From contig JANQDY010000149.1 in the NCBI GenBank assembly GCA_028278625.1, forward strand, positions 1 through 64,000: a DNA stretch of 64,000 bases, written 5' to 3'. Positions 39,574 to 60,012 of this stretch are shown in pieces. Position 1 is the first letter of the stretch. Each line of letters begins with the position of its first letter. The notes beneath the pieces are model-generated. The model was given only the letters and a program-made list of their open reading frames with translations, was not told the DNA's origin and did not search any database. Made by a program: the position numbers and the translations under genes. Source of the stretch: Thermodesulfobacteriota bacterium (lineage in GTDB: Bacteria > Desulfobacterota > DSM-4660 > Desulfatiglandales > Desulfatiglandaceae).

Positions 39574-39574
39574 T

Positions 39575-43488: not shown

Positions 43489-43782
43489 GGGCTGAAACCT
43501 GCTACCCCTGTAACCTTTGTTCACGGGGGTAGCAACTTCCTTCAAATACTTTTGTCTGAAACTTCCAAAGGCACAACAGGGGCAGGAACCTCAGCTCTGA
43601 ATTTTCGCCTCTGAGCCAGCGTTCAACAATGGACCTTCGGGCTATTGTGTTCAGTGGCGAAAAACTCAGCCTGAAAAAGGGAGCGCCGATTTAGCAGGTC
43701 CGCCTTCAAAATGCGTCTTTTAGAGAAAGTCGGGCCATTGAAACGCGAGGAAGGGAAATTGAAACAAAGAGAGGTGGTTTGA
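43489..43782. other. Intercistronic region between binding protein and permeases
   Basis: No gene is supported in these 294 bases. A hairpin at 43501-43533 is the main feature; an AGAGAGG site precedes the permease. Confidence 0.45.
43501..43533 (+). other. Intercistronic hairpin after binding protein
   Basis: GCTACCCC (43501-43508) pairs with GGGGTAGC (43526-43533). No U tract follows, so it is more likely an mRNA-stabilising or partial termination hairpin raising binding-protein levels over the permeases. Confidence 0.55.
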
Positions 43783-44748
43783 ATGGCAAATCGCACAAAA
43801 GAAGAAGTAATGCAGATGAATCCATCAATGCCGGTGGAGAGCGTGGATTTTCAAAAGGTCCGAGAACGGACTTTTTGGAGTGTGCTTAGCGATGACAAAT
43901 ATTATAAATGGGTTCTTTTGATACCGCTACTCCTTGTCCTTCTTATGTTCATGCTCTACCCGCTCTTTTACTGCATGTGGTATTCTTTGCATGAATTTGG
44001 CATGGTCAAGGCTGCCACCTTTCTCGGTTTGGAAAACTACCGCGATGTTTTGCGGGATGGAGAGTTCTGGCTGGCATTGGGCCGTACCGGAATTGTACTG
44101 GTGATCAGCATCGGAGCAGAGCTGATCATCGGCATGGCCATTGCGGTTTTGTTCAACCGGGAATTCAAAGGTCAGAATCCTATTCGGGGGCTGATCCTGC
44201 TCCCCCTGCTGATTGCACCGCTGGCCGTCTCCATGATGTGGAATTTTTTCCTGCAGTACGATTTCGGCATTGTGAATCTGGTTTTGGGCTTGGTAGGGAT
44301 TCCCAAAACAAGTTGGTTTGCACCAGGGGTGGGGCTATACACAATCGCGGCCATCTCGGTGTGGCAATGGATCCCTTTTTCAATTTTCGTTCTTCTGGCA
44401 GGGCTCAAAAGCTTACCCAGAGACTCCTTTGAAGCGGCCAAAGTAGATGGCGCAACCGCCTGGTACACATTCAGAAGACTCACCCTCCCAAATCTCGCGC
44501 CTTTGATTATGATTATTGTCCTTTTAAGGACCATGTGGCTAATCAGGCTCTTTGACCCACTTTACGGAACGACTCGCGGGGGGGCTGACACGGAGCTTCT
44601 GGACTGGCAGATCTATAGAAACACTTTTGTCTATTTTGATATCGGCCGGGGATCCACCCTGGCGATTATCTCGCTTTTTCTGACGATGATCGTCTGCGGT
44701 GTTCTTTTTAGACAGTTGATGAAGGCCCTTTCGGCCACAAGCGAATAA
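43783..44748 (+). CDS. ABC importer permease 1 (CUT1 type)
   Basis: A 321-residue inner-membrane permease with about six helices. The first helix is WVLLIPLLLVLLMFMLYPLFYCMWYSL and the coupling loop is SFEAAKVDGATAWYTFRRLTLPNLAPL. This is the UgpA/MalF-type subunit. A long cytoplasmic N-terminus of about 40 residues precedes the first helix. It is 14 bp upstream of the second permease. Confidence 0.85.
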   Translation: MANRTKEEVMQMNPSMPVESVDFQKVRERTFWSVLSDDKYYKWVLLIPLLLVLLMFMLYPLFYCMWYSLHEFGMVKAATFLGLENYRDVLRDGEFWLALGRTGIVLVISIGAELIIGMAIAVLFNREFKGQNPIRGLILLPLLIAPLAVSMMWNFFLQYDFGIVNLVLGLVGIPKTSWFAPGVGLYTIAAISVWQWIPFSIFVLLAGLKSLPRDSFEAAKVDGATAWYTFRRLTLPNLAPLIMIIVLLRTMWLIRLFDPLYGTTRGGADTELLDWQIYRNTFVYFDIGRGSTLAIISLFLTMIVCGVLFRQLMKALSATSE

Positions 44749-44762
44749 AGGAGGTAGAAAAA

Positions 44763-45575
44763 ATGAAACGAGTCCTTTTCTGGGCAGTGACACTGCTTGT
44801 GGTATTCACCTTTGTCTCTCCCCTGCTCTGGATGTACCTTACCTCATTCAAAACCAATGCGGATATCTACACCCAGGATCTGGTTAAAATGTTTTTCTTT
44901 TCCCCCATCGGGGAGAACTATGTAAACCTCTTTACCAAAACGGTTTTTGTGCGGGAGCTTATAAATACCTTGATCATTTCAATTACCAGCACGATTCTTG
45001 TGATGCTGGTGGCCTTACCGGCTGCATACAGCTTTGCCCGCTATGAGACCGGAAATGGCCATTTGCTGTTTGTCACCATTTCCACCCGAATGTTTCCCGC
45101 CGCAGTGGCAGCCATTCCATTCTTTATGGCTTTCAAGGGATTGGGTCTTTTGGATACACGCTTTGGTCTGATTATTCTCTATCTTTATTTTAATGTTTCC
45201 TTTGCTGTGTTCCTGCTCTACGGATTTTTCAGGGAGATCCCCGCGGAGCTGGAACAAGCGGCTACCATTGATGGGTATGGACGCATCGATATCTTCCGTA
45301 AGATCATTTTTCCAATGATTAAGCCCGGTGCGGCGATAACGGCCATTTTCTGCTTTATCTTTTCATGGAATGAGTTCCTTTATGCATTCCTATTTACAAG
45401 GAATATGGCCAGGACGCTCACCATGGGCCTGGCCTCTTTCTGGGCCTCGGGACAGGTCGATTGGGGAACAATGGCTGCATGTGTGTGTTTGGCCATTTTG
45501 CCAACCCTCGCCGCAGCTTGGTTTATGCAAAGGTACATCATTCGCGGCTTGACATTTGGCGCTGTGAAAGGATAG
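44763..45575 (+). CDS. ABC importer permease 2 (CUT1 type)
   Basis: A 270-residue UgpE/MalG-type permease with six helices starting VLFWAVTLLVVFTFVSPLLWMYLTS. The coupling loop ELEQAATIDGYGRIDIFRKIIFPMIKPG is intact. AAAGGAGG precedes the ATG. It ends the importer operon; the mftA precursor starts 94 bp downstream. Confidence 0.85.
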   Translation: MKRVLFWAVTLLVVFTFVSPLLWMYLTSFKTNADIYTQDLVKMFFFSPIGENYVNLFTKTVFVRELINTLIISITSTILVMLVALPAAYSFARYETGNGHLLFVTISTRMFPAAVAAIPFFMAFKGLGLLDTRFGLIILYLYFNVSFAVFLLYGFFREIPAELEQAATIDGYGRIDIFRKIIFPMIKPGAAITAIFCFIFSWNEFLYAFLFTRNMARTLTMGLASFWASGQVDWGTMAACVCLAILPTLAAAWFMQRYIIRGLTFGAVKG

Positions 45576-45639: not shown

Positions 45640-45669
45640 CTCATGAAAAAAAAGGAGTTAGGAAAACGT

Positions 45670-45801
45670 ATGGAATTGAAACAAAGAACAATCATAGAAG
45701 ACTCAAACGACACGGCCGATGACCTGCAGAAAGACCTTTTTTCCACCGAAGAAATACAGATTGAAGAAATGGCCATAGATGGGATTTGCGGAGTCTATTG
45801 A
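45670..45801 (+). CDS. mftA: Mycofactocin precursor peptide MftA
   Basis: A 43-residue RiPP precursor, missed by length filters. The C-terminus IDGICGVY is the mycofactocin core; MftC modifies the final Val-Tyr, and MftE later releases the product. The leader (MELKQRTIIEDSNDTADDL, then acidic STEEIQIEEM) is typical: acidic and poorly conserved. AAGGAG at 45652-45657 lies 12 bases before the ATG. It is followed after about 296 bp by mftB and mftC, the expected order. Confidence 0.93.
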   Translation: MELKQRTIIEDSNDTADDLQKDLFSTEEIQIEEMAIDGICGVY

Positions 45802-46097
45802 TATACTTGAGAAATGCTGTTGCCACAAGGCTGACGGCGTATCAGATGATTATCCGTTGGCCTTGTCTCCGTCCATAAATGGCCCTTTTCCGCAATCTCG
45901 ACGTCATGTGTCCTTGTACAGCGCACTATCCTAAGCCTCCGGGTCCGCGTCGGGGGATTCTCTATGATCTTGCGAAAGATTGTGCATTTGTGAATAGGTA
46001 ATGCATGGTGCCAGACACTGATTATTTGGATGGTCACTGGCCTTACCTCTTTCTTGGGGTTGTCTAGTCACCAAAGGCGTGGTTATAAATTAGATCA
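45802..46097. other. Spacer between mftA and mftB
   Basis: No gene is supported. The region could act as an untranslated segment raising precursor over enzyme levels; no clear terminator was seen. Confidence 0.4.
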
Positions 46098-46361
46098 ATG
46101 AAGCTAAATAAAGATACAAAGTATTTTCTATCACAGGATGCTCAAGTCAGAGAAGAAAATTTCGGACTCCTCTTTTACTCCATGAAGGGTCCGCAAATCT
46201 ATTTTCTATCTTCAGGGAAATTGCTGAATGCCTCTTTTTTTGAGGGAAAACAGAGTCTGGGACAGGTTCTACCAATGAAAAGGAAAAACCCTTCCTTGAA
46301 GGATCAATTAATGGCTGCTTTGGAACAGCTGGTGAAAAAAGGAGTTATCGTTGAGCGCTAA
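46098..46361 (+). CDS. mftB: Mycofactocin RiPP recognition protein MftB
   Basis: An 87-residue PqqD-like peptide chaperone that delivers MftA to MftC. QVREENFGLLFYSMKGPQIYFLSSGKLLNASFFEGKQ is the winged HTH-like RRE, with FGLLFY and the SSGKLLN strand diagnostic. The ribosome site is weak. Its end overlaps the start of mftC, coupling translation. Confidence 0.85.
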   Translation: MKLNKDTKYFLSQDAQVREENFGLLFYSMKGPQIYFLSSGKLLNASFFEGKQSLGQVLPMKRKNPSLKDQLMAALEQLVKKGVIVER

Positions 46362-47385
46362 GATGGCCAGGATGGGGCTCCGGGCACCGGTCAACGTGAC
46401 CTGGGAAATGACCCTCAAGTGCAATCTCCGTTGTGTCCACTGCCTTTCTGATGCCGGCGCTCCAGCTCCAAACGAATTGAGCCATTCGGAATGCCGCAAT
46501 TTGGTGGATCAATTGACGTCACTTCGGGTGTTTCAGGTTAATATCGGCGGCGGTGAACCGTTTATTCGTGGAGACTTTCCGGATCTGCTCACGTATTGCC
46601 ACCAAAAGGGCCTGATTACATGCGTCAGCACCAACGCGATGCTTGTTGACAACGCTTTGGCCCGCCACCTTTCCCAACTGAAAATGCTCTATTTGCAGAT
46701 CAGCCTGGACGGCGCCACAGCCGACGTGAATGATCCCATAAGGGGGAAGGGGACCTACAAACGGGTCCTCGAAGCTGCTGATTGCCTGGCGCGGCATCAC
46801 GTGAAGTTCAGCATCAATGCGGTGCTAACGCGAACCAACTACCCGCAATTGGAGGATTTGAGGAGAATGGCTGGGAACTACGGCGCCGAATTGCGGGTTT
46901 CTCGCTTCCGCCCCTCGGGCCGCGCCAAGGAATGCAGGGAATCACTGGCCCCTGATAAATGGCAGCTGGAGGCGTTTGCCGAATGGCTGGAAGGACACGA
47001 TCTGGTCCGGACCGGGGATTCCTTTTTCTGCCTCACTTCCGAAAACAGAAGACGAAAGGGGCTCGATATGTGCGGGGCCGCCAAGATGACCTGTTGCATA
47101 TCACCAACGGGTGACGTATACCCTTGCGCCTTTTTGCAGGAAGGGCCATTTCTGGCCGGGAATATTCGGAACACCTCCTTCAAGGAGATGTGGGACCGGT
47201 CTCCGGTCTTAAAAGAACTGCGCCATTTAAATGTGGAAACGTGTATGACCTGTGACCGGTTCGAGGCCTGTAGAGGGGGGTGCCCGGCCATGGCCTATCA
47301 TACCTACCACGATATCAACATGCCGGACCCTGAATGTTTGATCAATTTGAGATCCGGTTTCAGTGACAGGGCAGCCAATGTTTGA
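46351..47385 (+). CDS. mftC: Mycofactocin radical SAM maturase MftC
   Basis: A 344-residue radical SAM enzyme that decarboxylates and crosslinks the terminal Val-Tyr of MftA. The SAM cluster motif is CNLRCVHC (about residue 26), followed by NIGGGEPFIRGDFPDLL; the SPASM domain has MCGAAKMTCCISPTGDVYPCAFL and TCMTCDRFEACRGGCPA for two further clusters. The TTG at 46351, six bases after AAGGAG, is the likely start; the ATG at 46363 is poorly placed. It overlaps mftB and the next gene, so they are coupled. Confidence 0.93.
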   Translation: MSAKMARMGLRAPVNVTWEMTLKCNLRCVHCLSDAGAPAPNELSHSECRNLVDQLTSLRVFQVNIGGGEPFIRGDFPDLLTYCHQKGLITCVSTNAMLVDNALARHLSQLKMLYLQISLDGATADVNDPIRGKGTYKRVLEAADCLARHHVKFSINAVLTRTNYPQLEDLRRMAGNYGAELRVSRFRPSGRAKECRESLAPDKWQLEAFAEWLEGHDLVRTGDSFFCLTSENRRRKGLDMCGAAKMTCCISPTGDVYPCAFLQEGPFLAGNIRNTSFKEMWDRSPVLKELRHLNVETCMTCDRFEACRGGCPAMAYHTYHDINMPDPECLINLRSGFSDRAANV

Positions 47386-49324
47386 TCATCTGAAAAGCCC
47401 CATCACCATCGGGAAGACAGCACTTTCCAATCGCGCCTGCTTTCTGGCCCACCGTACCAATTTCGCTAAAGGGGGGCGTCTCACTGACCGACATGTGGCC
47501 TATTACCGGCGCAGGGCCGAGGGGACATGCGGCCTCATCATCGTAGGCGAGATGGCCATCCATGAAAACGATCGCCCCTGGGAGGCCATGATCGAAGTGT
47601 ACGGTCACCATGCAGTGGAAGACTTTCAAAAGCTGACCCGATCCATTCATGAATTCGATACCCGTATCTTTGCGCAACTGAACCATTACGGTTTTCAGGG
47701 AAGCGGCGCCATCACCCGCCACGCGGTCTGGGGCCCTTCAGCGCTTTCGGATATTGCCTTTGGCGAAACCGCCAAGCCCATGGAACCGGAAGATATCGAC
47801 ACGGTGGTCGATTCGTTTGTCCGGGCCGCCGTGGTTGTCCGGGACGGAGGCTTTGATGGCCTAGAAATCGATATGGGACCCGAATCTCTTTTGAGACAGT
47901 TTCTTTCCCCCTTGAGTAATCACCGGCAGGACCACTACGGCGGCAGCCTGGAAAACCGCATGCGGCTTCCCCTTCAGGTTCTGGAAGCGGTACGGAACAA
48001 AATAGGGGAGGATTTGACGGTAGGAATTCGCCTCTGCGCCGACGAGAAGTTCTGGGGCGCCATTGAGCCATCAGAATCGAGGGAGATGGCATCGGTCTTC
48101 GAAACTGAAGGAGGCGTTCATTTTATCAACGTAGCGGTGGGGACTTACTACAACCTGCACGTTTTGATGCCATCCATGCACACCCCTTTCGGATTTACCA
48201 TCGAGACGGCCGAGCAGATCAAGTCCGCCGTGAATATCCCGGTGATTGCCAGCCACCAGATCGATACGCCCGAAATGGCGGAAGAGATACTTGAAAGCGG
48301 GAAGGGGGACTTGGTGGGTTTTATCCGCAATTTCATCTGCGATCCCGATGCTCCCAAAAAGATACGTGAAGATAAACCCCAAGAGATCCGCTATTGCGTG
48401 CGGGACAACCAAGACTGTGTGGGACGCATCAACCAATCAAAACCCCTATGCTGTATTCAAAACCCGAATGTCGGTTACGAAAATCAATCTCTCGTCCACA
48501 ATCCGCAATCGGTAACCCGGAAAAGGGTGATCGTTGTGGGTGCCGGCCCGGCAGGCCTTTCGGCGGCCGTATCGGCTCGGGAAAAAGGTCATGAGGTCAC
48601 CGTCTACGAAAAGGCCGGCAAACCGGGCGGGCAAATCAACCTGGCGCTCAAAGGGGCCGGACGTGAAAACATGGGGGAAGTGATCCGATATTTGATCCGG
48701 CAATTGGATCAATTGGAAGTCCCCATCATTACAGGAACAGAAGTGACGGTTTCGGGGATGGTTAAAGAGAACCCCGATGCGGTGATCGTTGCCACCGGCT
48801 CGGAACCCTTGAAGAATCCCGTTCCCGGCGATTACGGACCGCCGTCAGTACAGAGCGTATGGGATATTATGGAAGAGCGTTACCCCGTGGGAGAAAGAAT
48901 TCTCTTTGTGGATGAAAACGGGGGCCACCACGCCACCGCCACCGTTGAAAAACTGGCCGACCAGGGGAAAAAAGTAGACATGATTACCGGTGATCTCTTT
49001 ATCGGAATCGAACTGGCGCCCTTAGGGGACCTGTATCTCACCCGGCAGCGGCTTCTTCAAAAGGGTGTCACCTTCACCACCGATGTGAGGGTAGATGCGA
49101 TTAACGGAAATCGCGTTACAGCAAGGGATATCTACACGAACCAGCCTGTCAATTTCGAGGGCCACGACACGATTGTTCTGGACATGGGTAATGGTGCCGT
49201 GGACCGGCTCTATCATGATCTTAAAGGCCGTGTGAAGGAACTTCACCGTGTTGGGGACTGTGTCGCGCCAAGGAACATCGGGATGGCCATTTTTGAAGGG
49301 CAAAAAACGGGAGAGAAGCTGTGA
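47378..49324 (+). CDS. Mycofactocin-associated FadH/OYE oxidoreductase 1
   Basis: A 648-residue dienoyl-CoA-reductase-like flavoprotein: FMN TIM barrel (about 1-330; LSPLSNHRQDHYGGSLENR), a 4Fe-4S motif, then an FAD domain starting VIVVGAGPAGLSAAVSA. In the cluster motif the second Cys is Asp: Cys340-x2-Asp343-x3-Cys347 with Cys359 as the fourth ligand. This may change redox potential. A GTG at 47363 is an alternative start; ATG 47378 gives the usual N-terminus. Such proteins accompany mycofactocin genes and probably move electrons to or from the carrier. Confidence 0.85.
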   Translation: MFDHLKSPITIGKTALSNRACFLAHRTNFAKGGRLTDRHVAYYRRRAEGTCGLIIVGEMAIHENDRPWEAMIEVYGHHAVEDFQKLTRSIHEFDTRIFAQLNHYGFQGSGAITRHAVWGPSALSDIAFGETAKPMEPEDIDTVVDSFVRAAVVVRDGGFDGLEIDMGPESLLRQFLSPLSNHRQDHYGGSLENRMRLPLQVLEAVRNKIGEDLTVGIRLCADEKFWGAIEPSESREMASVFETEGGVHFINVAVGTYYNLHVLMPSMHTPFGFTIETAEQIKSAVNIPVIASHQIDTPEMAEEILESGKGDLVGFIRNFICDPDAPKKIREDKPQEIRYCVRDNQDCVGRINQSKPLCCIQNPNVGYENQSLVHNPQSVTRKRVIVVGAGPAGLSAAVSAREKGHEVTVYEKAGKPGGQINLALKGAGRENMGEVIRYLIRQLDQLEVPIITGTEVTVSGMVKENPDAVIVATGSEPLKNPVPGDYGPPSVQSVWDIMEERYPVGERILFVDENGGHHATATVEKLADQGKKVDMITGDLFIGIELAPLGDLYLTRQRLLQKGVTFTTDVRVDAINGNRVTARDIYTNQPVNFEGHDTIVLDMGNGAVDRLYHDLKGRVKELHRVGDCVAPRNIGMAIFEGQKTGEKL

Positions 49325-51279
49325 GCGACTACAAATACCTCTTTTCTCCATTTAAGCTGGGATCCGTAATCGTGCCCAACCGGATCAACTTTGCGGCCCA
49401 TTTGACCAACCTCTCCCGGGACCATCAAATCAGTGAGGATCACATCTATTATTACCGTGAACGGGCCAAAGGCGGGTGCGGCCTCATCACCACTGAAGAG
49501 CTGACCGTTCATCCTTCTGACCTGGCATACGCAAAGCTTGTTGATGCTTTTGTACCGGAGGTGGTTCCGGGATTCCTGAAACTGACGGAAGCGATTCATG
49601 AATATGACACAAAGATTTTTGCCCAGCTGAACCATAACGGCATGCAGGCGGACGGCAAGCTTTCCCGCCTCCCGGTGTGGGGTCCTTCTCCCGGAAAAGA
49701 TCCGCTGTTCCGGGAAATGGCCAAAGAGATGGAAATCGAAGACATCAAAGAGTGCATCGAGTACTTCCAGAAAAGCGCCCTACACGTTGTGGAAGGGGGA
49801 TTTGACGGCATCGAGTTTCAATTGGGGCACAGCTCCCTGATCCGGCAGTTCCTGTCTCCCGCTACCAACTTCAGAACTGATGCATACGGCGGGAGCCTCG
49901 AAAACCGAATGCGGTTCTGCCTGGAGGTCGTAGAAGGGGTGAGAAAGACTGTGGGCAACGATTTCACCCTGGGGGTCAGGCTCAACGCCGATGAGATGCA
50001 TCCGAGAGGCGGGTTGACCATTGCTGATGCCACGGAAATAGCCGTGCGCCTTGAAGCTGCCAACCTCATCGATTTCCTGGATATCAGTCTGGGCACCTTC
50101 CACAACCTCTATCTGGTGGAAGGCTCTATGCACACGCCGCTGGCCTATACAACCCCCCTTTCAGCCGCAATCCGATCGAAGATCAATTTACCGGTCTATG
50201 CCACCAACCGCATCAATGATCCCCATCTGGCTGAAAAGGTATTGGAAGACGGGCAGGGGGATATGATCAACATGGTGCGGGCTCTGATCGCCGACCCCGA
50301 GCTTCCCAACAAGGCCATGGAAGGCCGGGAGGATGATATCCGGCAGTGCATCGCCTGCAACCAGGGATGTATCGGGCGCATGGGCCTCGGATACACCATC
50401 GGCTGCATGCAGACACCCGCCGCCGGCAATGAAAAAAAACTGGGTATTGGAACCCTCACCCCCTGCGGTACCCCCAAAAAAGTGGTGATTGTGGGTGCGG
50501 GTCCCGCCGGCCTTGAAGCCGCCCGGGTGGCGGCGCTCCGAAAACACCGGGTCATTCTCTTCGAAAGAAACGAGGAGGTTGGGGGGCAGAATATCATCGC
50601 CGGCAAAGTGGCCGGCCGCCAGGAGATTCAGGGTGTGACCCGATGGCTCCTCAGTCAGGTGGAAAAGCTGGACATTGATCTTCGTCTAGGAACCCTCGCG
50701 GATGAAGCCATGATATCCCAGGAAAATCCCGATGTGGTGATCATCGCAACCGGCTCAACACCCAAAGAAAGCCCCATTCCGGGAGAGTACGGTTATCCCC
50801 AGGTGGTGAACTCCGTGGATGTGCTCACGGAAAAAGTTGAAACCGGCGAAAAAGTTTTGCTCATCGATCTGGACGGTCACCACCAAGGAACGGGAACGGC
50901 GGAGTTTCTGGCGGACCGGGGCAAGAAGGTACACGTGCTGGTGCCGGCCCTGTTTCAGGGTTCTCAGTTGGGACCCCTTCAGGATCTCTTTCTGGCAAGG
51001 CAGCGTTTGGCCTTAAAAGGGGTTACCTGCACGCCGGATATTGCGGTCCTGGAAATCAATGGAACCATTGCCAAGGGGCTTAATGTCTATTCAAATGAAA
51101 TGATCGATTTTGAAGGGTACGACACCGTTGTTCTGGCGGCCGGTAACGTGTCGGACGAAGCTCTCTATTTTGCGCTCAAAGGAAAAGTGAAGGAATTGTA
51201 CCGGATCGGAGACTGCGTGGCGCCCAGAAAGACGGACATGGCCATCGTGGAAGGGCATCGGGTGGGAAGAAGCATATGA
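49321..51279 (+). CDS. Mycofactocin-associated FadH/OYE oxidoreductase 2
   Basis: A 652-residue paralogue of the previous gene with all four cluster ligands: CIACNQGC and a later GCMQTP Cys. FMN barrel (LSPATNFRTDAYGGSLENR) and FAD domain (VVIVGAGPAGLEAARVA) are complete. The GTG start overlaps the previous stop by four bases behind GGGAGAG. Two paralogues differing at a cluster ligand suggest a division of labour between carrier oxidation and Etf reduction. Confidence 0.87.
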   Translation: MSDYKYLFSPFKLGSVIVPNRINFAAHLTNLSRDHQISEDHIYYYRERAKGGCGLITTEELTVHPSDLAYAKLVDAFVPEVVPGFLKLTEAIHEYDTKIFAQLNHNGMQADGKLSRLPVWGPSPGKDPLFREMAKEMEIEDIKECIEYFQKSALHVVEGGFDGIEFQLGHSSLIRQFLSPATNFRTDAYGGSLENRMRFCLEVVEGVRKTVGNDFTLGVRLNADEMHPRGGLTIADATEIAVRLEAANLIDFLDISLGTFHNLYLVEGSMHTPLAYTTPLSAAIRSKINLPVYATNRINDPHLAEKVLEDGQGDMINMVRALIADPELPNKAMEGREDDIRQCIACNQGCIGRMGLGYTIGCMQTPAAGNEKKLGIGTLTPCGTPKKVVIVGAGPAGLEAARVAALRKHRVILFERNEEVGGQNIIAGKVAGRQEIQGVTRWLLSQVEKLDIDLRLGTLADEAMISQENPDVVIIATGSTPKESPIPGEYGYPQVVNSVDVLTEKVETGEKVLLIDLDGHHQGTGTAEFLADRGKKVHVLVPALFQGSQLGPLQDLFLARQRLALKGVTCTPDIAVLEINGTIAKGLNVYSNEMIDFEGYDTVVLAAGNVSDEALYFALKGKVKELYRIGDCVAPRKTDMAIVEGHRVGRSI

Positions 51280-52295
51280 ATGACACGGCTCACAAGAAGC
51301 ACCCTTGGGATATATGGGTTCTGGCCGAACACCGGAGGCAAACCTTTGCGCCTGAGACCTTCGGTTTAATTAGCGAGGCGCGACGGTTGGTTTCCCAGTC
51401 TGAAAACGGCCGGATTACGGTGCTGGTGCTTGGGGCACAGCTTCCCGAGGAACCGGAGACCCTGGGTTTTCATGGCGTGGACCGGGTGCTGACACTCGAA
51501 AGTCCAATCCTCTCCCACTATCACGGGGAGCGGGTCGCCCAAATCCTGTCTTCCTTGCTTGAACAAAATTTGCCAAAAGCCCTACTGACGGCCCAAAGTG
51601 CGGATACGGCGGACCTCTGCGTCAGACTGGGAGGGCTCCTTGAAACGGGTGTGGTGACCCACGCAATGGATCTGCGCGTTGACACCAAAGGTGAATGGAG
51701 CGCCGTCCGTCCCATTGCCAACGGGTATCTCTTTGAGGAAATTAAGGTTCAAACCGAAAAGATGCCCATCATCGTTTTTCACCCCGCTGTCCTGATGCCG
51801 GCTGCTGAAGTTGGGAAAACCGTGGCACAAATTGAGGTGATCCCGGTTCAAGATCTTCCAGATGGCCTCAAAACGGAAATCATCGAAGTGATTGAAGCGG
51901 ATCCCGAAACCCTCGATATCGAAGAGGCGGATATGATTGTTTCAGCCGGCCGCGCCGTGGGCGGAGAAGAGGGCATGACGAAGATCCATGAGCTGGCAAG
52001 CGTGCTGGCTGGATCGGTTGCGGCCACAAGACCGGTCATCGACCGACATCTCCTTCCGTATGAACGCCAGATCGGCCAGACCGGTAAAACGGTCACCCCG
52101 CGCCTCATCATCAACTGCGGTATATCAGGGGCCAACGAATACACGGCGGGCATGGAAGGGGCCGAAAAAATTGTTGCGATCAATACCGACCCCCGGGCCC
52201 GTATTTTCCGATTTGCGGATCTGGGGATTGTAGGAGATCTTCATGAACTGCTGCCCTTACTCATAAACCGAATTCGTGAGATGAAAGATGCCTGA
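51276..52295 (+). CDS. etfA: Electron transfer flavoprotein alpha subunit
   Basis: A 339-residue EtfA. The C-terminal FAD domain is typical: AATRPVIDRHLLPYERQIGQTGKTVTPRLIINCGISGANEY and VAINTDPRARIFRFADLGIVGD. It overlaps the OYE 2 stop by four bases. The matching EtfB is three genes downstream, so the two subunits flank the cytochrome and membrane protein. It would accept electrons from the OYE flavoproteins and deliver them to the membrane. Confidence 0.9.
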   Translation: MNDTAHKKHPWDIWVLAEHRRQTFAPETFGLISEARRLVSQSENGRITVLVLGAQLPEEPETLGFHGVDRVLTLESPILSHYHGERVAQILSSLLEQNLPKALLTAQSADTADLCVRLGGLLETGVVTHAMDLRVDTKGEWSAVRPIANGYLFEEIKVQTEKMPIIVFHPAVLMPAAEVGKTVAQIEVIPVQDLPDGLKTEIIEVIEADPETLDIEEADMIVSAGRAVGGEEGMTKIHELASVLAGSVAATRPVIDRHLLPYERQIGQTGKTVTPRLIINCGISGANEYTAGMEGAEKIVAINTDPRARIFRFADLGIVGDLHELLPLLINRIREMKDA

Positions 52296-53073
52296 GTCTA
52301 TTAAGAAACATCTCATATTTGGGTGCTCGATGCTGTTGCTCTTTCTTTTAGCGAACACGCCGTGGGCATATGAAGAGCCGGAGTGCATCAAATGCCACCG
52401 TGAGGGAAGCACCGAAAGCACGCTTCATATGAACGAGAAAGCCTTTGAGAATTCGGTCCATTTTAATGAGATTACCTGCACGGACTGCCATGCGGATGTT
52501 ACGGACGACACTCATATGGAACAAAAGGGTTCGGGGAAGGTGGATTGCAGCTCGTGTCATGATCAGGAGAACCGGCACGGGATAAACTCTCAAAACGTGG
52601 GAACCCGACCTCAATGCCAAGACTGCCACACAAAACATGCCATTCTGGGAAAAGGCCATCCCGATTCCTCGGTAAACCCGGATAACTTCCCGAATACCTG
52701 CGGGTCTTGTCACTCGGCCCAGTTTGGTGATGCGGGTTTTATGACATGGTTGCCGTCGGTTCAGATCAGGACCCACGCCAAACAGGATTTTTCTTGTGAT
52801 TTTGACGAAAGAGACTGCTTGGGGTGCCACCAGGGAAGGGGCGCCCATGGCGAACAAACCCCCGTTAATGATGCCCAATGCTGGAAATGCCATATTCCCA
52901 AAGGTGACCGGGCGGCGGTCGTGGGTGACATCCACCCCAAGGCCGCTCAAAAGAAAAGCATCTATCACGGGATCGCAGGAATACTCTATGGGGCTGCCGC
53001 CCTGGTTTTGATGGTGAGCGGTTGCCGCTTTTTCATGCGCCGTTTCTCAACAAAAAGCGGAACGAGGAGGTGA
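52288..53073 (+). CDS. Seven-haem cytochrome c with C-terminal membrane anchor
   Basis: A 261-residue periplasmic cytochrome: signal peptide (LIFGCSMLLLFLLANTPWA), seven CxxCH motifs (CIKCH, CTDCH, CSSCH, CQDCH, CGSCH, CLGCH, CWKCH) and a C-terminal membrane helix (IAGILYGAAALVLMVSG). Its start overlaps the etfA stop by eight bases. It likely partners the membrane Fe-S protein that follows, exchanging electrons on the periplasmic side with the quinone pool or other cytochromes. Confidence 0.88.
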   Translation: MPESIKKHLIFGCSMLLLFLLANTPWAYEEPECIKCHREGSTESTLHMNEKAFENSVHFNEITCTDCHADVTDDTHMEQKGSGKVDCSSCHDQENRHGINSQNVGTRPQCQDCHTKHAILGKGHPDSSVNPDNFPNTCGSCHSAQFGDAGFMTWLPSVQIRTHAKQDFSCDFDERDCLGCHQGRGAHGEQTPVNDAQCWKCHIPKGDRAAVVGDIHPKAAQKKSIYHGIAGILYGAAALVLMVSGCRFFMRRFSTKSGTRR

Positions 53074-53078
53074 ATGAT

Positions 53079-54971
53079 TTGCTGTTAACCGCTTTTGATC
53101 TCCTCTTAATTGCTATTTCCCTGATCGTTTTCCTGGTGGGCCTTGAAAAACTGAGGGCCTCATGGCGCGTGGGGCGCAAAGAAGATGTAAAGTGCGATCT
53201 AAAGGGTCTCTTTTCATACCTTTTAGGTCACCAAAAGATTCTTCAAAACCCGCCTAAAGGGGTGGCCCACCTGCTGGTGTTCTGGGGCTTCATCTTTGCC
53301 TTTCTGATGGGAATTCTTCCCCAGTTCGGGATCTCCCTCCCATCCCCAGTGGCCGGTATCTTGTCTTTCTTAAGCGACTTCTTTGGCCTTGTGCTTTTGT
53401 GGGGCCTTGTGGTTTTCCTGTTGAGACGAATCAGCAGCGATCCCCAAACCGGGCCCAAACGGGTGATATTCCCCATGATCCTCCTTGTGATCATGGTATT
53501 AAGCGGTTTTCTGGCCGAAGGGACCCGCCTTTCCATCACGGATGCACCATGGCACCTGCGGACGCCTATCGGGAGCCTGCTCTCCAAGGTTTTAGCACCT
53601 TCCCCCCTGCTCATGCAGAGTATGATCCGCATCCACTTTTTTGCCTTGCTGGTTTTTATTGCCATTTTACCCTTCTCCTTCATGCGGCATCTCATTTCTG
53701 GAACCCTTAGCGTGGCGTACCGGGAAAAAGGGCCCAAGAGAGTGCTGAGGAACTTGAACCTGCAGAAAAGTGGCGGTGAAAGCCCGGTGGTGGGAGCGCA
53801 ATCGGTCAGGGACTTTACCTGGAAGCAGTTGCTGGAAATTCAGGCCTGTGTCTCATGCGGCCGCTGTGATGAGGGATGTCCCGCCGCCATTTCCGGAAAA
53901 CCCCTTCATCCCCGCGAGCTTATGGGGGCCATTCACGACCGTATTTGCATAGGACCTTTGGCATCTCTTGAAAAGAGCATTTCACAAGACGCCCTCTGGG
54001 CCTGCACCACGTGCATGGCTTGCGTGGAAAGGTGCCCGGTCTATGCCAGCCCCATGGACAAACTCATGGAGATCAGACGGGCTGAAGTTATGGGGGAAGG
54101 GCGTCTGCCGGAAGCCGCAAGAGATATGATGCGGAATCTTGAGGTTTTTGGTGATGTGAACGGCCGGGGTCCGTCGCACAGGGAAGACTGGGCAATGCAT
54201 TTGGGGATACCCCATATTTCAGAGGAGCATCTGAATCCGGAAATCCTTCTGTGGGTGGGATGTTCCGGCGCTTTTCATCCCCGGTACCAGGAGACCTATC
54301 GTGCGCTGGTTAGGATATTGAAAGCGGGCGGAGTGCGATTCGGGATTTTGGGGCATGAGGAATCTTGCTGCGGTGATGGCGCCAGAAGGTTGGGGGATGA
54401 AACGCGGTTTTTGTCTCTTGCAAGGAAGAACCTGGCCGTTTTCAAAAAGTACCATATTAAAAAAATTGTCTGTCTCTGCCCCCACGGTTATAACACCCTT
54501 AAAAACGAATACGTTTCTCTGGGAGGTGATTTTGAGGTAATTCCAGCGGTCCTTTATGTCCTTGATTTGATCAGGCAAAAAAGGATCACCCTCAAATACC
54601 CCGTCAACAGACAAATGGCCATACATGACCCCTGTTATTTGGGCCGTGTGAACGGCATCTACGATTCCTTGAGAGAAGTGATGGCCAGTGTTCCCGGTAT
54701 CAAACTTCATGAACTCGAACAATCCCGAGAAAATGCCCTTTGCTGCGGAGGGGGGGGTGGCCGCATGTGGCTTCATGAAAGCATCGGAAAGAATATTAAC
54801 CATCTGCGCGCCGAACATGTGGCGGAAGCGGGTGTGAACCTGGTAGGGACGGCCTGCCCCTACTGCCTGACCATGCTGGAGGATGGCATTAATTCTCTTG
54901 AGATGGAGAATCCGCCCAGGGTCATGGATCTGATGGAGGTGATTGATGCGGCCTTGGGTCGCACCTACTGA
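53079..54971 (+). CDS. Membrane Fe-S oxidoreductase (ETF:menaquinone oxidoreductase/HdrD-like)
   Basis: A 630-residue fusion: N-terminal NarI-like membrane domain with about six helices (LLTAFDLLLIAISLIVFLVG to LLVFIAILPFSFM), a dicluster ferredoxin domain (CVSCGRCDEGCP, CTTCMACVERCP) and two CCG domains (ESCCGDGARR, LCCGGGGGRMW). This architecture is the EMO type that links EtfAB to menaquinone in syntrophs and Geobacter. The TTG at 53079, eight bases after GAGGAGG, is preferred; a frame from 53022 would overlap the cytochrome. Confidence 0.88.
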   Translation: MLLTAFDLLLIAISLIVFLVGLEKLRASWRVGRKEDVKCDLKGLFSYLLGHQKILQNPPKGVAHLLVFWGFIFAFLMGILPQFGISLPSPVAGILSFLSDFFGLVLLWGLVVFLLRRISSDPQTGPKRVIFPMILLVIMVLSGFLAEGTRLSITDAPWHLRTPIGSLLSKVLAPSPLLMQSMIRIHFFALLVFIAILPFSFMRHLISGTLSVAYREKGPKRVLRNLNLQKSGGESPVVGAQSVRDFTWKQLLEIQACVSCGRCDEGCPAAISGKPLHPRELMGAIHDRICIGPLASLEKSISQDALWACTTCMACVERCPVYASPMDKLMEIRRAEVMGEGRLPEAARDMMRNLEVFGDVNGRGPSHREDWAMHLGIPHISEEHLNPEILLWVGCSGAFHPRYQETYRALVRILKAGGVRFGILGHEESCCGDGARRLGDETRFLSLARKNLAVFKKYHIKKIVCLCPHGYNTLKNEYVSLGGDFEVIPAVLYVLDLIRQKRITLKYPVNRQMAIHDPCYLGRVNGIYDSLREVMASVPGIKLHELEQSRENALCCGGGGGRMWLHESIGKNINHLRAEHVAEAGVNLVGTACPYCLTMLEDGINSLEMENPPRVMDLMEVIDAALGRTY

Positions 54972-54978
54972 TTATCCC

Positions 54979-55848
54979 ATGCATATTATCGTTTGTGTCA
55001 AACAGATTGCTTACACCTATGCCAGAACCGGAAAGGAACTGGAACGGCATTTTCTCTCCAAAGAGGATGTGGTGTGCCGGGTCAACCCCTATGATGAAGT
55101 GGCCGTTGCTGCCGCCCTCCGTGCCAGGGAACTTTCCGGCGCATTCATCAGTCTGCTGACCCTGGGGCCCATCATTGCGGAGACGGAACTCCGACGTTGT
55201 GCCGCTTTTGGCGTAAAGGGGCTTTACCAAATGGATACGTCAGGAACACTCGATCCGTGGCAGAAAGCAGTTCTGCTCTCCCGCGCCATTTCAAAGATCG
55301 GTGCGGACCTGGTCTTTTGCGGCAAGGAGTCTTTGGATACGCGAAACGGTCAAGTGGGGGCGCACCTGGGGTACTGTCTCAAACGGCCGTTTGTTTCGAA
55401 CCTCAGAGATCTTCATCAGGTTTCCAAGGAAGAGGGACTAGTGGTGGAGCGAAGTGCGGGACGCGGCAGGCGGGAGATGGTCCGGTGCCCGCTCCCCGCA
55501 ATATGCAGCGTGGACGCAGGGAATCTCTCATTACCGGTGCCCACTTTTAATCAGATGGAGGCAAGCGGTAAACTACCAATCACTCAGATGATGTTCGATG
55601 AGAGCACCATAAACCCAAGAGCCCTTCGAACCCGTATCGGTCCCCCGAGACCCCGCCCCAAGGCGCCCGAGCCCCCCGACAGCAGCCTTTCTTCCTATGA
55701 ACGGTCAAAGGCCCTTTTGACCGGCAGCCGTCTTGAAAAGACGGGAGAGATGCTGACGGGAAGCCTCGATTCTCAAGTGGACGGGTTCATCTCTTTTCTT
55801 CAAAACAACGATTTTCTTGAGACAATGCGAGACGATCCTGAGGAGTGA
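54979..55848 (+). CDS. etfB: Electron transfer flavoprotein beta subunit
   Basis: A 289-residue EtfB starting HIIVCVKQIAYTY, with VNPYDEVAVAAALRARE and GKESLDTRNGQVGAHLG for the AMP/FAD region. The ATG at 54979 gives the standard EtfB start; the open frame from 54943 adds a spurious stretch. An extended tail of about 50 residues after FNQMEASG is Pro-rich then helical. It forms the Etf heterodimer with the etfA product and lies seven bases after the membrane protein gene. Confidence 0.9.
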   Translation: MHIIVCVKQIAYTYARTGKELERHFLSKEDVVCRVNPYDEVAVAAALRARELSGAFISLLTLGPIIAETELRRCAAFGVKGLYQMDTSGTLDPWQKAVLLSRAISKIGADLVFCGKESLDTRNGQVGAHLGYCLKRPFVSNLRDLHQVSKEEGLVVERSAGRGRREMVRCPLPAICSVDAGNLSLPVPTFNQMEASGKLPITQMMFDESTINPRALRTRIGPPRPRPKAPEPPDSSLSSYERSKALLTGSRLEKTGEMLTGSLDSQVDGFISFLQNNDFLETMRDDPEE

Positions 55849-55852
55849 TCCT

Positions 55853-57349
55853 TTGGAGAACGGACCGCAACAATCGTTGCCCACTTTAGGCTATCGTCTG
55901 GCTGCGCGGGTTTCCATTCGAGAGAGAAGCGGCAGTATTGTTCTGATTCTCTCCTATCCCCTTAAAACGATGACGCTTCACTCAGCCTGGCGGGTGGTCG
56001 TCAGCCGTCTGAAAGGGAAGGACTTCATATCGTTAGATGAGATAAGGGCCTTGATGGGAGACATGGACATGGACCGGGTGGAATCCATGTTAACCACCCT
56101 GGCGGTAAAAGGATTTCTTGAGCAAAAAGGCGTTTCAAAGCTGGAAGAATACCCAAAAGTATCCGTTGTCATTCCCGTTTACAACCGGCCAACTGAAATC
56201 AAAGAATGTCTTCAATCGCTTTTACATCTGGATTACCCCGTGAAGCAGCTGGAAATCGTGGTTGTGGATGATGGGTCAACGGACCACACACCCATTGTGG
56301 TTTCTGAATTCCCGGTTCGTCTCATTCGCATGGAGAAAAACAGACAGGCCCCGTTCTGCCGAAATACCGGCGCCGAAGCGGCTGAAGGAGAAATCCTGGC
56401 TTTCGTGGATTCCGATTGCCTCGTGGATCCCCAGTGGCTGAAGGAACTGCTGCCCACCTTTAAAGATGCATCAATAGGCGCCGTGGGAGGTCGCGTGGAT
56501 GCCCATTATAGACGATCGGGACTTGACCGGTACGAAGCGGTCAATTCTTCCTTGATCATGGGCCGACGTGCCATGGTCTCACAGAGAAAAGAAAATGTTT
56601 TTTATGTGCCGTCGTGCAATTTACTGGTTCAAAAAAAGGTATTTCAACATGTCGGGGGTTTCAGAGAGGAACTGGTGGTGGGAGAGGACGTGGATCTCTG
56701 CTGGCGCATCCAGGATTTTGGCTTTAGAATCGCTTTTCAACCGGTTGGCAGCGTATTGCACAAACACCGAAACCGCCTGATCCCCTTCTGCAAAAGGCGT
56801 TTTGAATATGGCACCAGTGAACCGTTGCTTCAAAAGCTGCACAAGAAAAGAAGAAAGAAATGGATCTATCCTTTGGGGGGATGGCTTTTCTTGATATTGG
56901 GAATTTTGGCCGTGACAATGAATCTTCCATTCTTGTTTCTCCTGTGCGGAGGCATCATTTTGTGGGATGCTCTTCTTAGATGGCGTACAATTCGAACAAA
57001 AGAGCTGCCGCTGGGGTTCTTATCCATTTTCCTGGCGGTTGTGCGGAGTTATTCCGCCTACGGCTATCATCTCTGTGCCTTTACATCACGGTATTACCTG
57101 ATCTGGGCAATCTTCCTTGTTTTCCTTTTGCCAACGGCTTCAATGATGATTCTGGTGATGCATCTCCTGGTGGGATTGGTTGACTTCATCGTGAAAAAGC
57201 CCCAACTTAACCCATTTCAGTTTCTCTTTTATTTCACCCTCGATCAGATATCCTATCAGTGCGGCGTTTGGCGGGCGTGCCTTAAGGAGCGCTCCTTTGG
57301 ATCGGTGAACCCGAAGCTGGCCCTGTCGGCTTCTTCAAATACTGGTTAG
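55853..57349 (+). CDS. mftF: Mycofactocin glycosyltransferase MftF
   Basis: A 498-residue protein that glycosylates the mycofactocin precursor product. Residues 1-90 are a PqqD-like region (LPTLGYRLAARVSIRERSGS... FISLDEIRAL), then a GT2 domain (VSVVIPVYNRPTEIKECLQSL, DDGSTDHTPI, AFVDSDCLVDPQW), then about four membrane helices. The N-terminal extension plus GT2 plus membrane region is the MftF pattern. The TTG at 55853, seven bases after AGGAG, is the likely start. It closes the operon; no mftD or mftE gene is seen in the window. Confidence 0.85.
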   Translation: MENGPQQSLPTLGYRLAARVSIRERSGSIVLILSYPLKTMTLHSAWRVVVSRLKGKDFISLDEIRALMGDMDMDRVESMLTTLAVKGFLEQKGVSKLEEYPKVSVVIPVYNRPTEIKECLQSLLHLDYPVKQLEIVVVDDGSTDHTPIVVSEFPVRLIRMEKNRQAPFCRNTGAEAAEGEILAFVDSDCLVDPQWLKELLPTFKDASIGAVGGRVDAHYRRSGLDRYEAVNSSLIMGRRAMVSQRKENVFYVPSCNLLVQKKVFQHVGGFREELVVGEDVDLCWRIQDFGFRIAFQPVGSVLHKHRNRLIPFCKRRFEYGTSEPLLQKLHKKRRKKWIYPLGGWLFLILGILAVTMNLPFLFLLCGGIILWDALLRWRTIRTKELPLGFLSIFLAVVRSYSAYGYHLCAFTSRYYLIWAIFLVFLLPTASMMILVMHLLVGLVDFIVKKPQLNPFQFLFYFTLDQISYQCGVWRACLKERSFGSVNPKLALSASSNTG

Positions 57350-57489: not shown

Positions 57490-60012
57490 ATGCAACAAGC
57501 AGCAGAGAGAATCAACCTCGAAGGGATAGAGCCCTATGACAAGGATTGGGGAACCGGTACTTCGGGTCAGATGGAGAATCCGTCACCCTTTCCCCGCATC
57601 AACGCCTGGCGTAGAGAGTTTTTGCGTACACCTCTAACCATTTCTCCGGACCGTGCCGTGCTGTGGACCCGGCAGCTTCAGAAAAACAAGGGAAAACCAC
57701 TGATTGTACGAAATGCCGAAGCGTTGGCTTACACCCTTCGAAAGGTGCCTATCGAAATCGGCAAGTATGAGCTGATTCTAGGCAATATGGGAGCGCCACC
57801 CAGGTCGGCACCGGTGTTTCCCGAATTTTCCTATGAATGGCTGATCCACGAGATGGAAAACGAACCCTTTGAAAAGCGGAAGGGCGATCGCTTCCTCATC
57901 AGTGCGGAGACCAAAAAGGCATTAAAGCGGATTCGAGGCTTCTGGAAGAATGAAACTGTTCATGATTATGCCAAATCATTGATGAGCGAGGAGGAACTGA
58001 AAGGGACCGGCGCCTATGGAAAAGGGGTGTATCTCCTGGGGAACTACTTCTTTGGAGGGGTGGGGCATGTGTCGCCCCGCTATGAGATGGTTTTTGAAAT
58101 GGGTTGGAAGGGCATTCGGGAAAGGATAGAAGAGAAGATCGCCGAGCTGGATCCATTGCTTCCGGAGAATGTTATTAAGCTGCAATTCCACAATGCGCAA
58201 CTGATAGCCCTGGAAGGCATTATCGCCTACACATCCCGTTACGCCGATCTGGCGCGAAATATGGCGTCAAAAAAGAGGGGGGTGCGTCGGAAGGAACTCC
58301 TTCAAATGGCCGACAACTGTGAATGGGTTGCCGAGAATCCACCCAGGAGTTTCTGGGAGGCCCTTCAGCTTTGGTGGCTGCTCACCATTACCATTACCAT
58401 CGAGGGTAACGGTCATTCCATTCACTGGGGCAGGTTTGACCAGATCCTGTATCCCTTTTACGAAAAGGATGTGGCAGAGGGCGAAACGACCCCGGCATTT
58501 GTGCAGGAACTTATTGAAGGGGCCTGGATCAAAATCAGCGAACTGACCAAAGTCAGGGATGCCGGCTCTACCAAAGCCTTTGGAGGGGTGGAGTTGGGAG
58601 GCCCTTCCCTGACCGTCGGCGGCCAGACACCGGATGGGAAAGACGCCACCAATGAGCTCTCCTTTATGGCGGTCGATGCCCTGGTACATGTTCGTCTGAA
58701 TGCCCCCTGGATGACCAGCCGCTGGCATGCAAACTCCCCTCACGAGTGGTGGGTGAAGGTCACGAAGGCGGCAAAAGTGGGCCTGGGAATGCCGTCTTTC
58801 TTTAACGATGAGGTGATCATTCCTTCCATGATCAACCGGGGTCGTTCCATTGAAGATGCGAGAGATTATGGGGCCTTGGGTTGCGTGGAACCCGATTCGG
58901 GTGGGCGGGAATACGGTTGGCACGACGCGGCCTTCTTTAATCTGAACAAGGTTCTCGAACTGGCCCTGAATGATGGCCAGTGTATCGATTGCGGCGCCCA
59001 TTGCCCCAGACACGCCACCTGTGCCGGCGCCGGCTCTCAACTGGGCATTCGAACCGGCAACCTTAGTACGTTCCAAACCTTTGAAGAGGTGAAGGACGCC
59101 TATGTAAAACAGATGGAATACTGGGTGGATCGTCTGGTGAGATCCGAAATCTGCATGGATTTGGCCCATCAGGCCTTGAAACCGCTGCCATACCTTTCGC
59201 TCCTGGTGGAAGATTGCACGGAGAAGGGAATGGATGTAACGGCCGGAGGAGCCCGGTACAATTTCGTGGGTCCGCAAGGGGTTGGCGTCAGCAATGTGGC
59301 CGATGGACTTTCCGCCATCAAACAGTTGGTCTTCGACCAAAAAACGGTCACCGGCGGGGAATTCCTTGAGGCCCTCAAAGGAAATTGGGAAGGTTATGAG
59401 ACACTGCACGCCCTGGTCAACAGTGCCAAGGTCTCCCACTACGGTAACGATGACAAAGGGGCCGACCAGTTGGGATGGTTCGGCGCCAAAACCTATTGCC
59501 GTCTGTTGGAGGGCCGTCCCACGGCCCACGGCGGTGAATTTCAGGCCGGTCTTTATCCCGTTTCAGCCAATGTGCCGCTGGGGGCCCTGCAGGGGGCAAC
59601 GCCGGACGGGAGGAAGGCTGGGGAACCGGTCGCCGATGGCGTTTCACCGGTTCATAATGAACGTGGATCCCATGATATCAAGGGACCCACGGCGGTGGTC
59701 AAATCGGTTTCACGACTGGATCACGGCATTGCCTCAAACGGTACCCTGCTGAATATGCGCTTCAGCCCGTCAACCCTGGCGGGAGAAGTGGGGGATGAGA
59801 GTTTCATCGGTATGATGAAGGTCTTTTTTCGGCGGAAGGGGATGCATAATCAGATCAATGTGATCAGTCGAAAAACCCTTGAAGATGCGATGGAGAATCC
59901 TTCAAAATACAAGGGTCTCATTGTCCGGGTGGCGGGTTACAGCGCCTTTTTTACGGAGCTGGATCCAAGTGTGCAAAGAGATATTCTGGAGAGGACGGAG
60001 TTATCCTTTTAG
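57490..60012 (+). CDS. Glycyl radical enzyme (dehydratase/lyase type)
   Basis: An 840-residue pyruvate-formate-lyase-superfamily enzyme. The thiyl Cys465 and Glu467 lie in GCVEPDSGG, the motif of diol, choline and hydroxyproline-type eliminases rather than PFL; Gly816 in RVAGYSAFF is the radical site. Residues 498-511 form a C-x2-C-x3-C-x5-C cluster I do not recall from characterised members. Ribosome site AAGGAGG. The activase follows. The substrate is unknown; C-O or C-N elimination giving an aldehyde would suit the AORs nearby. Confidence 0.9.
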   Translation: MQQAAERINLEGIEPYDKDWGTGTSGQMENPSPFPRINAWRREFLRTPLTISPDRAVLWTRQLQKNKGKPLIVRNAEALAYTLRKVPIEIGKYELILGNMGAPPRSAPVFPEFSYEWLIHEMENEPFEKRKGDRFLISAETKKALKRIRGFWKNETVHDYAKSLMSEEELKGTGAYGKGVYLLGNYFFGGVGHVSPRYEMVFEMGWKGIRERIEEKIAELDPLLPENVIKLQFHNAQLIALEGIIAYTSRYADLARNMASKKRGVRRKELLQMADNCEWVAENPPRSFWEALQLWWLLTITITIEGNGHSIHWGRFDQILYPFYEKDVAEGETTPAFVQELIEGAWIKISELTKVRDAGSTKAFGGVELGGPSLTVGGQTPDGKDATNELSFMAVDALVHVRLNAPWMTSRWHANSPHEWWVKVTKAAKVGLGMPSFFNDEVIIPSMINRGRSIEDARDYGALGCVEPDSGGREYGWHDAAFFNLNKVLELALNDGQCIDCGAHCPRHATCAGAGSQLGIRTGNLSTFQTFEEVKDAYVKQMEYWVDRLVRSEICMDLAHQALKPLPYLSLLVEDCTEKGMDVTAGGARYNFVGPQGVGVSNVADGLSAIKQLVFDQKTVTGGEFLEALKGNWEGYETLHALVNSAKVSHYGNDDKGADQLGWFGAKTYCRLLEGRPTAHGGEFQAGLYPVSANVPLGALQGATPDGRKAGEPVADGVSPVHNERGSHDIKGPTAVVKSVSRLDHGIASNGTLLNMRFSPSTLAGEVGDESFIGMMKVFFRRKGMHNQINVISRKTLEDAMENPSKYKGLIVRVAGYSAFFTELDPSVQRDILERTELSF

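Follow-up and report, generated by a model that had tools for sequence, protein, structure and literature searches.

How a mycofactocin gene cluster that lacks mftD could complete its peptide cofactor, and where the electrons would then go, is the question raised by an operon at positions 45643-57349 (+ strand) of contig JANQDY010000149.1 from a Thermodesulfobacteriota bacterium. All coordinates refer to the window, which is the 64,000-nucleotide (nt) stretch that was analyzed. Between mftC and mftF, the operon carries genes for two flavoproteins of the OYE family, an electron transfer flavoprotein (Etf), a multiheme cytochrome and a membrane Fe-S protein of the EtfD/EMO type. In the explanation that we favor, and consider fairly probable as a whole, a mycofactocin system without MftD (MftA, MftB, MftC, MftF) is joined to a transferable oxidation cassette. 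A more specific proposal is made tentatively: the OYE_2 protein and its Etf chain could constitute a second type of premycofactocin synthase, unrelated to MftD. As an amine dehydrogenase linked to Etf, it would stand in place of MftD and would have passed as a cassette from one mftA-B-C-F cluster to another with exchange of its quinone end (FixC, EMO plus heptaheme cytochrome, or Hmc), and the respiratory chain would then serve both synthesis and re-oxidation of the cofactor with no need for oxygen.

Organization of the operon

The curated NCBIfam cut-offs were passed by MftA, MftB, MftC, MftF and one of the two OYE proteins. The gene mftA (45643..45801, +) encodes a precursor peptide of 52 amino acids with the C-terminal sequence IDGICGVY (TIGR03969, 35.9 bits, cut-off 25) and is followed by the chaperone gene mftB (46098..46361, +; TIGR03967, 53.6 bits, cut-off 33) and by mftC (46351..47385, +), which encodes the radical SAM/SPASM maturase (TIGR03962, 359 bits, cut-off 265). 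OYEb (49321..51279, +) was identified as mycofactocin-system FadH/OYE oxidoreductase 2, or OYE_2 (TIGR03997, 864 bits, cut-off 793), and is devoid of GxGxxG in its second dinucleotide site. OYEa (47363..49324, +), with the Fe-S motif CxxD, is a diverged OYE_2-like paralogue that reached 752 bits with the same profile. The OYE_1 profile (TIGR03996, cut-off 628) gave 363 bits for OYEa and 371 bits for OYEb; assignment of OYEa to OYE_1 was therefore rejected, and the 'OYE 1/2' pair of an earlier note on this DNA was replaced by OYE_2 and its paralogue.

The electron-transfer genes start with etfA (51276..52295, +; PF00766 and PF01012), for which the nearest solved chain was 5ol2 (161 bits). Next is a c-type cytochrome gene (52288..53073, +; PF14522), in which seven CxxCH motifs were counted, as many as had been claimed, together with N-terminal signal-like and C-terminal hydrophobic segments. 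The predicted ETF:menaquinone oxidoreductase of the EtfD/EMO type (53070..54971, +) contains PF02754 in two stretches, PF13183 and five hydrophobic segments, and matched chain 9ojn (1042 residues) with 292 bits; its gene starts at GTG 53070 or a few codons downstream, within an open reading frame (ORF) listed from 53022. The gene etfB (54943..55848, +, with ATG 54979 as its likely start; PF01012) had 6fah_B (CarD) and 4kpu_B as the nearest solved chains (59 bits), and the operon closes with the glycosyltransferase gene mftF (55817..57349, +; TIGR03965, 366 bits, cut-off 280). Both Etf subunits scored below the curated families for mycofactocin-associated Etf, with 129 bits for mft_etfA (cut-off 240) and 71 bits for mft_etfB (cut-off 200).

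The ten genes thus lie on the + strand in the order given by the earlier note. Its gaps of a few bases hold from mftB to mftF, where intergenic distances are -32 to +7 bases with the chosen starts, and fail between mftA and mftB, which are 296 bases apart; its operon start at 45670 corresponds to the second Met of MftA, and the ORF in the list begins at 45643. Since mftA starts only 67 bases downstream of an ABC permease gene, the transcript may begin further upstream. No mftD gene was found in the operon in the ORF list or with NCBIfam and Pfam profiles of the operon proteins, and no mftE gene was found with these profiles. The named MftC relatives closest to the window were mostly from environmental Desulfobacterota.

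Distribution of MftD and the OYE-Etf cassette

MftD makes the mycofactocin redox core in a step described as aerobic (PMC8406134), and it was reported by Haft in 2011 to be non-universal in mycofactocin clusters (PMC3023750). In M. smegmatis, deletion of mftD abolished mycofactocin and left AHDP, and loss of mftE merely lowered the yield (PMC7491314). Producers without MftD therefore need a substitute, and mft clusters in Desulfobacterota, haloarchaea and other lineages were found without MftD over the cut-off.

Among 149 genomes sampled from an actinobacterial phylum (that of G035), MftC was over its cut-off in 18 genomes, MftD in 15 and OYE_2 in three, and these three were exactly the MftC genomes without MftD (Fisher p 0.0012); one or the other was present in 18/18. 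MftG was over its cut-off in 4/18, all with MftD, and 11 of the 15 MftD genomes had neither MftG nor OYE_2 over the cut-off; GMC and OYE homologues below the cut-offs were common in this sample. MftE was over its cut-off in 16/18, among them two of the three with OYE_2.

The same division was seen on complete plasmids, where the window MftC matched 15 records, 12 of them mftC; the count omits three radical SAM matches with 28-33% identity that are not annotated as mftC. MftD was found on four of the 12 plasmids and an OYE gene or cassette on eight; no plasmid was found to carry both or to lack both. The plasmid of S. lavendulae, an unannotated record, was scored OYE-positive by tblastn alone, and the OYE_2 of Streptomyces SAT1 is split into two pieces that lack annotation. 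Absence of the cassette from the four MftD plasmids was judged from 19-25 kb around mftC, and these plasmids were not among the OYE matches listed (60 of 551 records). The gene order is mftC-mftD-mftE-mftF in Streptomyces NBC_00080 and mftC-OYE1-OYE2-etfA-FAD oxidoreductase (in the FixC place)-ferredoxin-etfB-mftF in S. yangpuensis, and mftE is present alongside the OYE cassette in NBC_00564 and H. turkmenica. MftD-like genes were also seen on two Sphingopyxis plasmids without an mftC match.

Based on these distributions, the OYE cassette probably replaces MftD; being exclusive with a biosynthetic enzyme, it may have synthesis of the cofactor's redox core as its primary task, and it may also re-oxidize the cofactor. 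The module had been described as one of an anaerobe, and anaerobiosis of the host is inferred from its relatives. A device of anaerobes only was rejected, given that Streptomyces plasmids bear the cassette.

Association with mft genes and make-up of the cassette

Among 395 genomes from the phylum of G002 (a Desulfobacula metagenome-assembled genome), MftC was over its cut-off in 18, OYE_2 in 16 and both in 15 (Fisher p 2.5e-23, without correction for relatedness). MftC was unaccompanied by OYE_2 over the cut-off in G019, G184 and G420, the first of which has matches below it.

Genome contigs were scanned with an MftC alignment, by which 80 loci were kept, and 14 further genome stretches were mapped. 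EtfA was present in 71 loci, or 69 unique loci after removal of the duplicates L143 and L144 (contigs of L038 and L031). The gene after EtfA was FixC-like in 57 of these, a cytochrome in 11 and a 16-heme HmcA-like gene in one (L004, with HmcB and HmcC over their cut-offs), and no other type was found in this place. Conserved linkage of OYE, Etf and quinone-reductase genes with mftC, for which the earlier note had proposed a survey, was thereby supported. A small FixX-like ferredoxin gene follows the FixC-like gene in several loci (two tested), and EMO follows the cytochrome in the window and in 10/11 loci, the contig of L001 ending at that point. Seven CxxCH motifs were present in 11/12 cytochrome rows including the window, and five in L137. 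The cytochrome follows EtfA in 0/57 FixC loci; it is confined to EMO-type loci and was rejected as a universal part of the cassette. Next to mft genes, the cassette was found repeatedly in both bacteria and haloarchaea, where the neighboring genes differ. The other 23 loci are without EtfA: in 12 the sequence stops less than 3 kb from mftC, L133 is without mftC, and ten are listed below as evidence against our proposal.

The genomes behind these loci were also searched, 45 of them for MftD and MftE (12 + 33) and 47 for OYE_2. MftD was over its cut-off in 1/45 (G027) and MftE in 0/45, with only sub-cut-off matches for the latter; for OYE_2, 45 of the 47 had a match with an E-value of at most 1e-180, and 33 were over the cut-off.

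Some loci carry additional genes. A GlpC-like CCG protein (248 bits, cut-off 278) is encoded between OYEb and etfA in L012 (14934-16370), and an unlabelled ORF of similar size is in the same place in L013 (5556). Extra radical SAM genes are located beside mftF in L140 (13046-15472), where they are below every curated cut-off shown, and in L015 (2991-4139, one gene).

Exchange of the cassette between mft clusters

Trees were built for a subset of loci (MftC, 40 rows; MftF, 18; OYEb, 28; EtfA, 25). MftC and MftF of L017 grouped with the clade of the window (branch support 100/99 and 100/100), and OYEb and EtfA of the same locus grouped with the actinobacterial FixC types (100/99 and 99/97). With an ancestry of OYE, Etf and FixC unlike that of the flanking mftC and mftF, the set moves as a cassette, and the OYE, Etf and quinone reductase genes appear to have been exchanged as one unit between unchanged mft genes. 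Of all the evidence, we regard this swap as speaking most strongly for a single functional chain made up of these parts. OYEb and EtfA of L004 remain in the EMO group, and the difference there is limited to the quinone end.

Sequence features of the OYE, Etf and EMO-type proteins

GxGxxG was absent from the second dinucleotide site in 82/82 aligned OYE rows (found in 0/64 OYEb). This site of OYEb aligns without gaps to trimethylamine dehydrogenase (TMADH) and histamine dehydrogenase, and FadH and 2-naphthoyl-CoA reductase (NCR) are two residues shorter there, as judged by eye. A His aligned to a His of TMADH was found in 64/64 OYEb rows and was absent in 14/15 OYEa rows (set L001-L017 plus window); the TMADH residue has a role in the active site. 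The Fe-S ligands of OYEb are CCCC in 44/64 rows (including the window) and CDCC in 20/64, and those of OYEa are CDCC in 15/15 rows of the same set. As a separate observation, Asp in the second ligand position (20/64 OYEb and 15/18 OYEa rows) points to a possible Asp-ligated [4Fe-4S] cluster, present in some members of the family and absent from others. In EtfB, the window has DTRNGQ at the position of DGDTAQ in CarD. Motifs of the DGDTAQ type in EtfB are linked to bifurcation.

Chain 9ojn was taken to be the 1042-residue EtfD of PMC13083937, and the sites reported there were located in the EMO-type protein by counting along the alignment. Its residues match His78 and His241 (heme b) and Phe85 and Phe230 (menaquinone), and five membrane segments, a Fer4 [4Fe-4S] domain and two CCG domains accompany the His pair, as in EtfD/EMO proteins. 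The earlier reading of this protein as an ETF:menaquinone reductase thus gains support, and the sequence lends good support to a predicted route to quinone. At Cys538-Thr539 of EtfD the window has Cys-Cys, and at Cys584 it has Gly; these differences point to an Hdr-like cluster in place of the linear cluster of EtfD. The Syntrophus EMO is reported to be a diheme, Fe-S ETF:methylmenaquinone oxidoreductase (PMC8805022).

Proposed electron route and alternative explanations

In the mechanism proposed here, MftA, MftB, MftC and MftF would build the glycosylated peptide cofactor, and the OYE proteins would withdraw two electrons from some form of mycofactocin at flavin mononucleotide (FMN) and pass them through their own [4Fe-4S] cluster to Etf. 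TMADH passes electrons to ETF from a [4Fe-4S] center in this way (PMC8097209). Etf would then reduce the EtfD/EMO-type protein, whose Fe-S chain and heme b would reduce menaquinone, and the 7-heme cytochrome, probably periplasmic, would be either a partner of EMO or a second exit. The OYE substrate would most likely be the amine precursor AHDP, as in the reaction of MftD. Reduced mycofactocin is probably a substrate as well, and a single cassette would then both produce the redox core and sustain its turnover. With potentials of -255 mV for premycofactocin and -74 mV for menaquinone (PMC11778925), flow to menaquinone is downhill. The OYE substrate, the direction of flow and the role of the cytochrome are as we infer them.

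Several observations weigh against this proposal. For nothing more than a biosynthetic step, an entire respiratory branch looks excessive. OYE_2 was without MftC over the cut-off in 1/16 genomes (G432); among the 45 genomes behind the mapped loci, G027 has both OYE_2 and MftD, on other contigs, and G029 and G030 have neither. The exclusion comes from few independent lineages, that is, from 3/18 genomes and from plasmids of which 6 of 8 with OYE belong to Streptomyces; moreover, G035 is the chosen center of its sample, and the split without it is 2 vs 15. In G524, OYE_2 is on a contig other than that of mftC, and no Etf was found in the two 20 kb stretches mapped. The ten mftC loci that lack EtfA despite more than 3 kb after mftC are L008, L011, L040, L051, L059, L061, L132, L138, L141 and L142; seven of these have OYE_2 matches at other places in their genomes, and L059, L061 and L142 do not. 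(L138 and L141 are mftABC loci without OYE, and their genomes, G091 and G335, have OYE_2 genes elsewhere.) Finally, OYEb is overall closer to NCR and FadH (316 and 281 bits) than to TMADH (197 bits), and the Cys that binds FMN in TMADH (cysteinyl-FMN) is absent, Leu being aligned there.

The earlier note had let the OYE proteins oxidize reduced mycofactocin via Etf, a reaction whose route it called poorly known; for mycobacteria this route is now known to involve MftG (PMC11778925). Absence of the NADPH motif, as in TMADH, is in keeping with that role, but as the sole role it is unsupported, the cassette being exclusive with the biosynthetic MftD. That the OYE proteins only do the work of MftG, with some other enzyme making the redox core, is unlikely. 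A dedicated Etf and membrane reductase would fit a high-flux step, MftG too feeds the respiratory chain (PMC11778925), and where annotated near mftC on plasmids MftG goes with MftD (2/4 MftD plasmids), so that plasmids alone cannot separate the two; against this, OYE_2 complements MftD and not MftG in the actinobacterial genomes, and M. smegmatis without MftD makes no mycofactocin (PMC7491314), so that a substitute is needed. The converse, in which OYE is an MftD substitute, Etf and EMO drain that reaction alone and the mature cofactor is re-oxidized elsewhere, agrees with the exclusion, with the same gene position in Streptomyces and with the amine-oxidizing relatives TMADH and histamine dehydrogenase; we nevertheless regard it as rather unlikely, a dedicated membrane complex with a 7-heme cytochrome being out of proportion to cofactor synthesis.

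Transfer of the electrons to menaquinone through EMO and the cytochrome, as first suggested, is borne out as far as the conserved quinone-site residues go, and the cytochrome may provide a second exit in addition to menaquinone. It could even be the main one, with electrons passing from EMO across the membrane to periplasmic cytochromes in an Hmc-like manner. Its place between EtfA and EMO in 11/11 EMO cases (10 loci and the window), its absence after EtfA from FixC loci, and the 16-heme HmcA-like protein, HmcB and HmcC at that place in L004 would suit such an exit; it is made doubtful by the retention in EMO of the quinone-site Phe residues of EtfD and by FixC-type cassettes without a cytochrome there. 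Very improbable is a chance neighborhood in which OYE, Etf and EMO serve catabolism of a local substrate (enoate or acyl-CoA redox). A diol dehydratase, an aldehyde oxidoreductase and a transporter are indeed encoded in the same region and the OYE relatives are enoate reductases, but OYE_2 tracks MftC in 15 genomes of the 395-genome sample, on which ground local catabolism as the only role was rejected, and the cassette lies beside mft in both bacteria and haloarchaea despite the differing neighbors.

Comparison with known systems

The NCBI family names show that curators had already seen OYE and Etf beside mft. On Streptomyces plasmids, the mycofactocin OYE 1/2 (TIGR03996, TIGR03997) and Etf families (NF038209, TIGR04503) occupy the same place between mftC and mftF as OYE, EtfA and EtfB here; the window differs in its low-scoring Etf, in having no OYE_1 and in the cytochrome and EMO that replace FixC and ferredoxin. 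EtfD of M. smegmatis and EMO of Syntrophus are homologous to the window protein and share its five hydrophobic segments, Fe-S and CCG domains, heme-b His pair and quinone Phe pair, whereas the window gene lies beside mft and a 7-heme cytochrome rather than in a beta-oxidation setting, and differs at Cys538-Thr539 and Cys584. Trimethylamine and histamine dehydrogenases are OYE-type proteins with the same [4Fe-4S] Cys and non-GxGxxG second dinucleotide site, but OYEb is without the cysteinyl-FMN Cys and is nearer to FadH and NCR overall. The actinobacterial MftD and MftG would hold the same place in the pathway (AHDP oxidation and mycofactocinol re-oxidation, respectively) and belong to other families (LldD-like and GMC); neither was seen alongside the OYE cassette except in G027.

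No paper joining mycofactocin with an electron transfer flavoprotein was found in the open-licence literature searched, and a link of OYE/Etf or EMO to mycofactocin was announced in none of the titles and abstract openings listed. Likewise, the MftD exclusion, the cassette swap and the EMO and Hmc ends were not found in print in this literature, which was represented mostly by titles and abstract openings. The exclusion between MftD and OYE-Etf names a likely MftD substitute in these lineages, and the interchange of quinone ends illustrates in what way a peptide cofactor can connect to respiratory chains of different kinds.

Neighboring genes and possible electron source

An Fe-dependent alcohol dehydrogenase (Fe-ADH; 33302..34780, +) is a candidate reducer of mycofactocin, based on its similarity to Fe-ADH encoded upstream of mftA elsewhere. 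It matched the Fe-ADH just upstream of mftA in the Geobacter-type loci L030, L032, L037 and L063 with 425-437 bits, and the other 13 Fe-ADH compared with 92-289 bits. Methanol-oxidation genes are reported beside the mycofactocin genes of Geobacter pickeringii (PMC4358379). In other loci, Zn-type relatives dependent on N,N-dimethyl-4-nitrosoaniline and a short-chain dehydrogenase/reductase of the mycofactocin-coupled type were found near mftA or mftF, all below cut-off.

Genes for a diol dehydratase of the glycyl radical type and for its activase (57490..60973, +) follow mftF after 140 bases. Among solved structures, the dehydratase is closest to glycerol dehydratase 1r8w (701 bits), and as sulfopropanediol dehydratase HpfG it scored 889 bits (cut-off 1000). 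Upstream of mftA is an ABC transporter (39530..45575, +) with two UgpC-like ATPases, a substrate-binding protein and two permeases, which has homologues before mftA in L007 and L016. We guess that the substrate is a polyol or glycol. Genes for an AFOR-type aldehyde oxidoreductase, an APH-type kinase and an enolase lie in a row upstream of the transporter (34950-39283) and could form a route from glycerate to phosphoenolpyruvate.

Further from the operon, the window contains a phage-type integrase (4007-5155), a radical SAM protein with DUF3641 (16400-17524) and, on the - strand at 29100-30200, a shorter OYE gene that stands apart from the operon and has PF00724 as its sole match.

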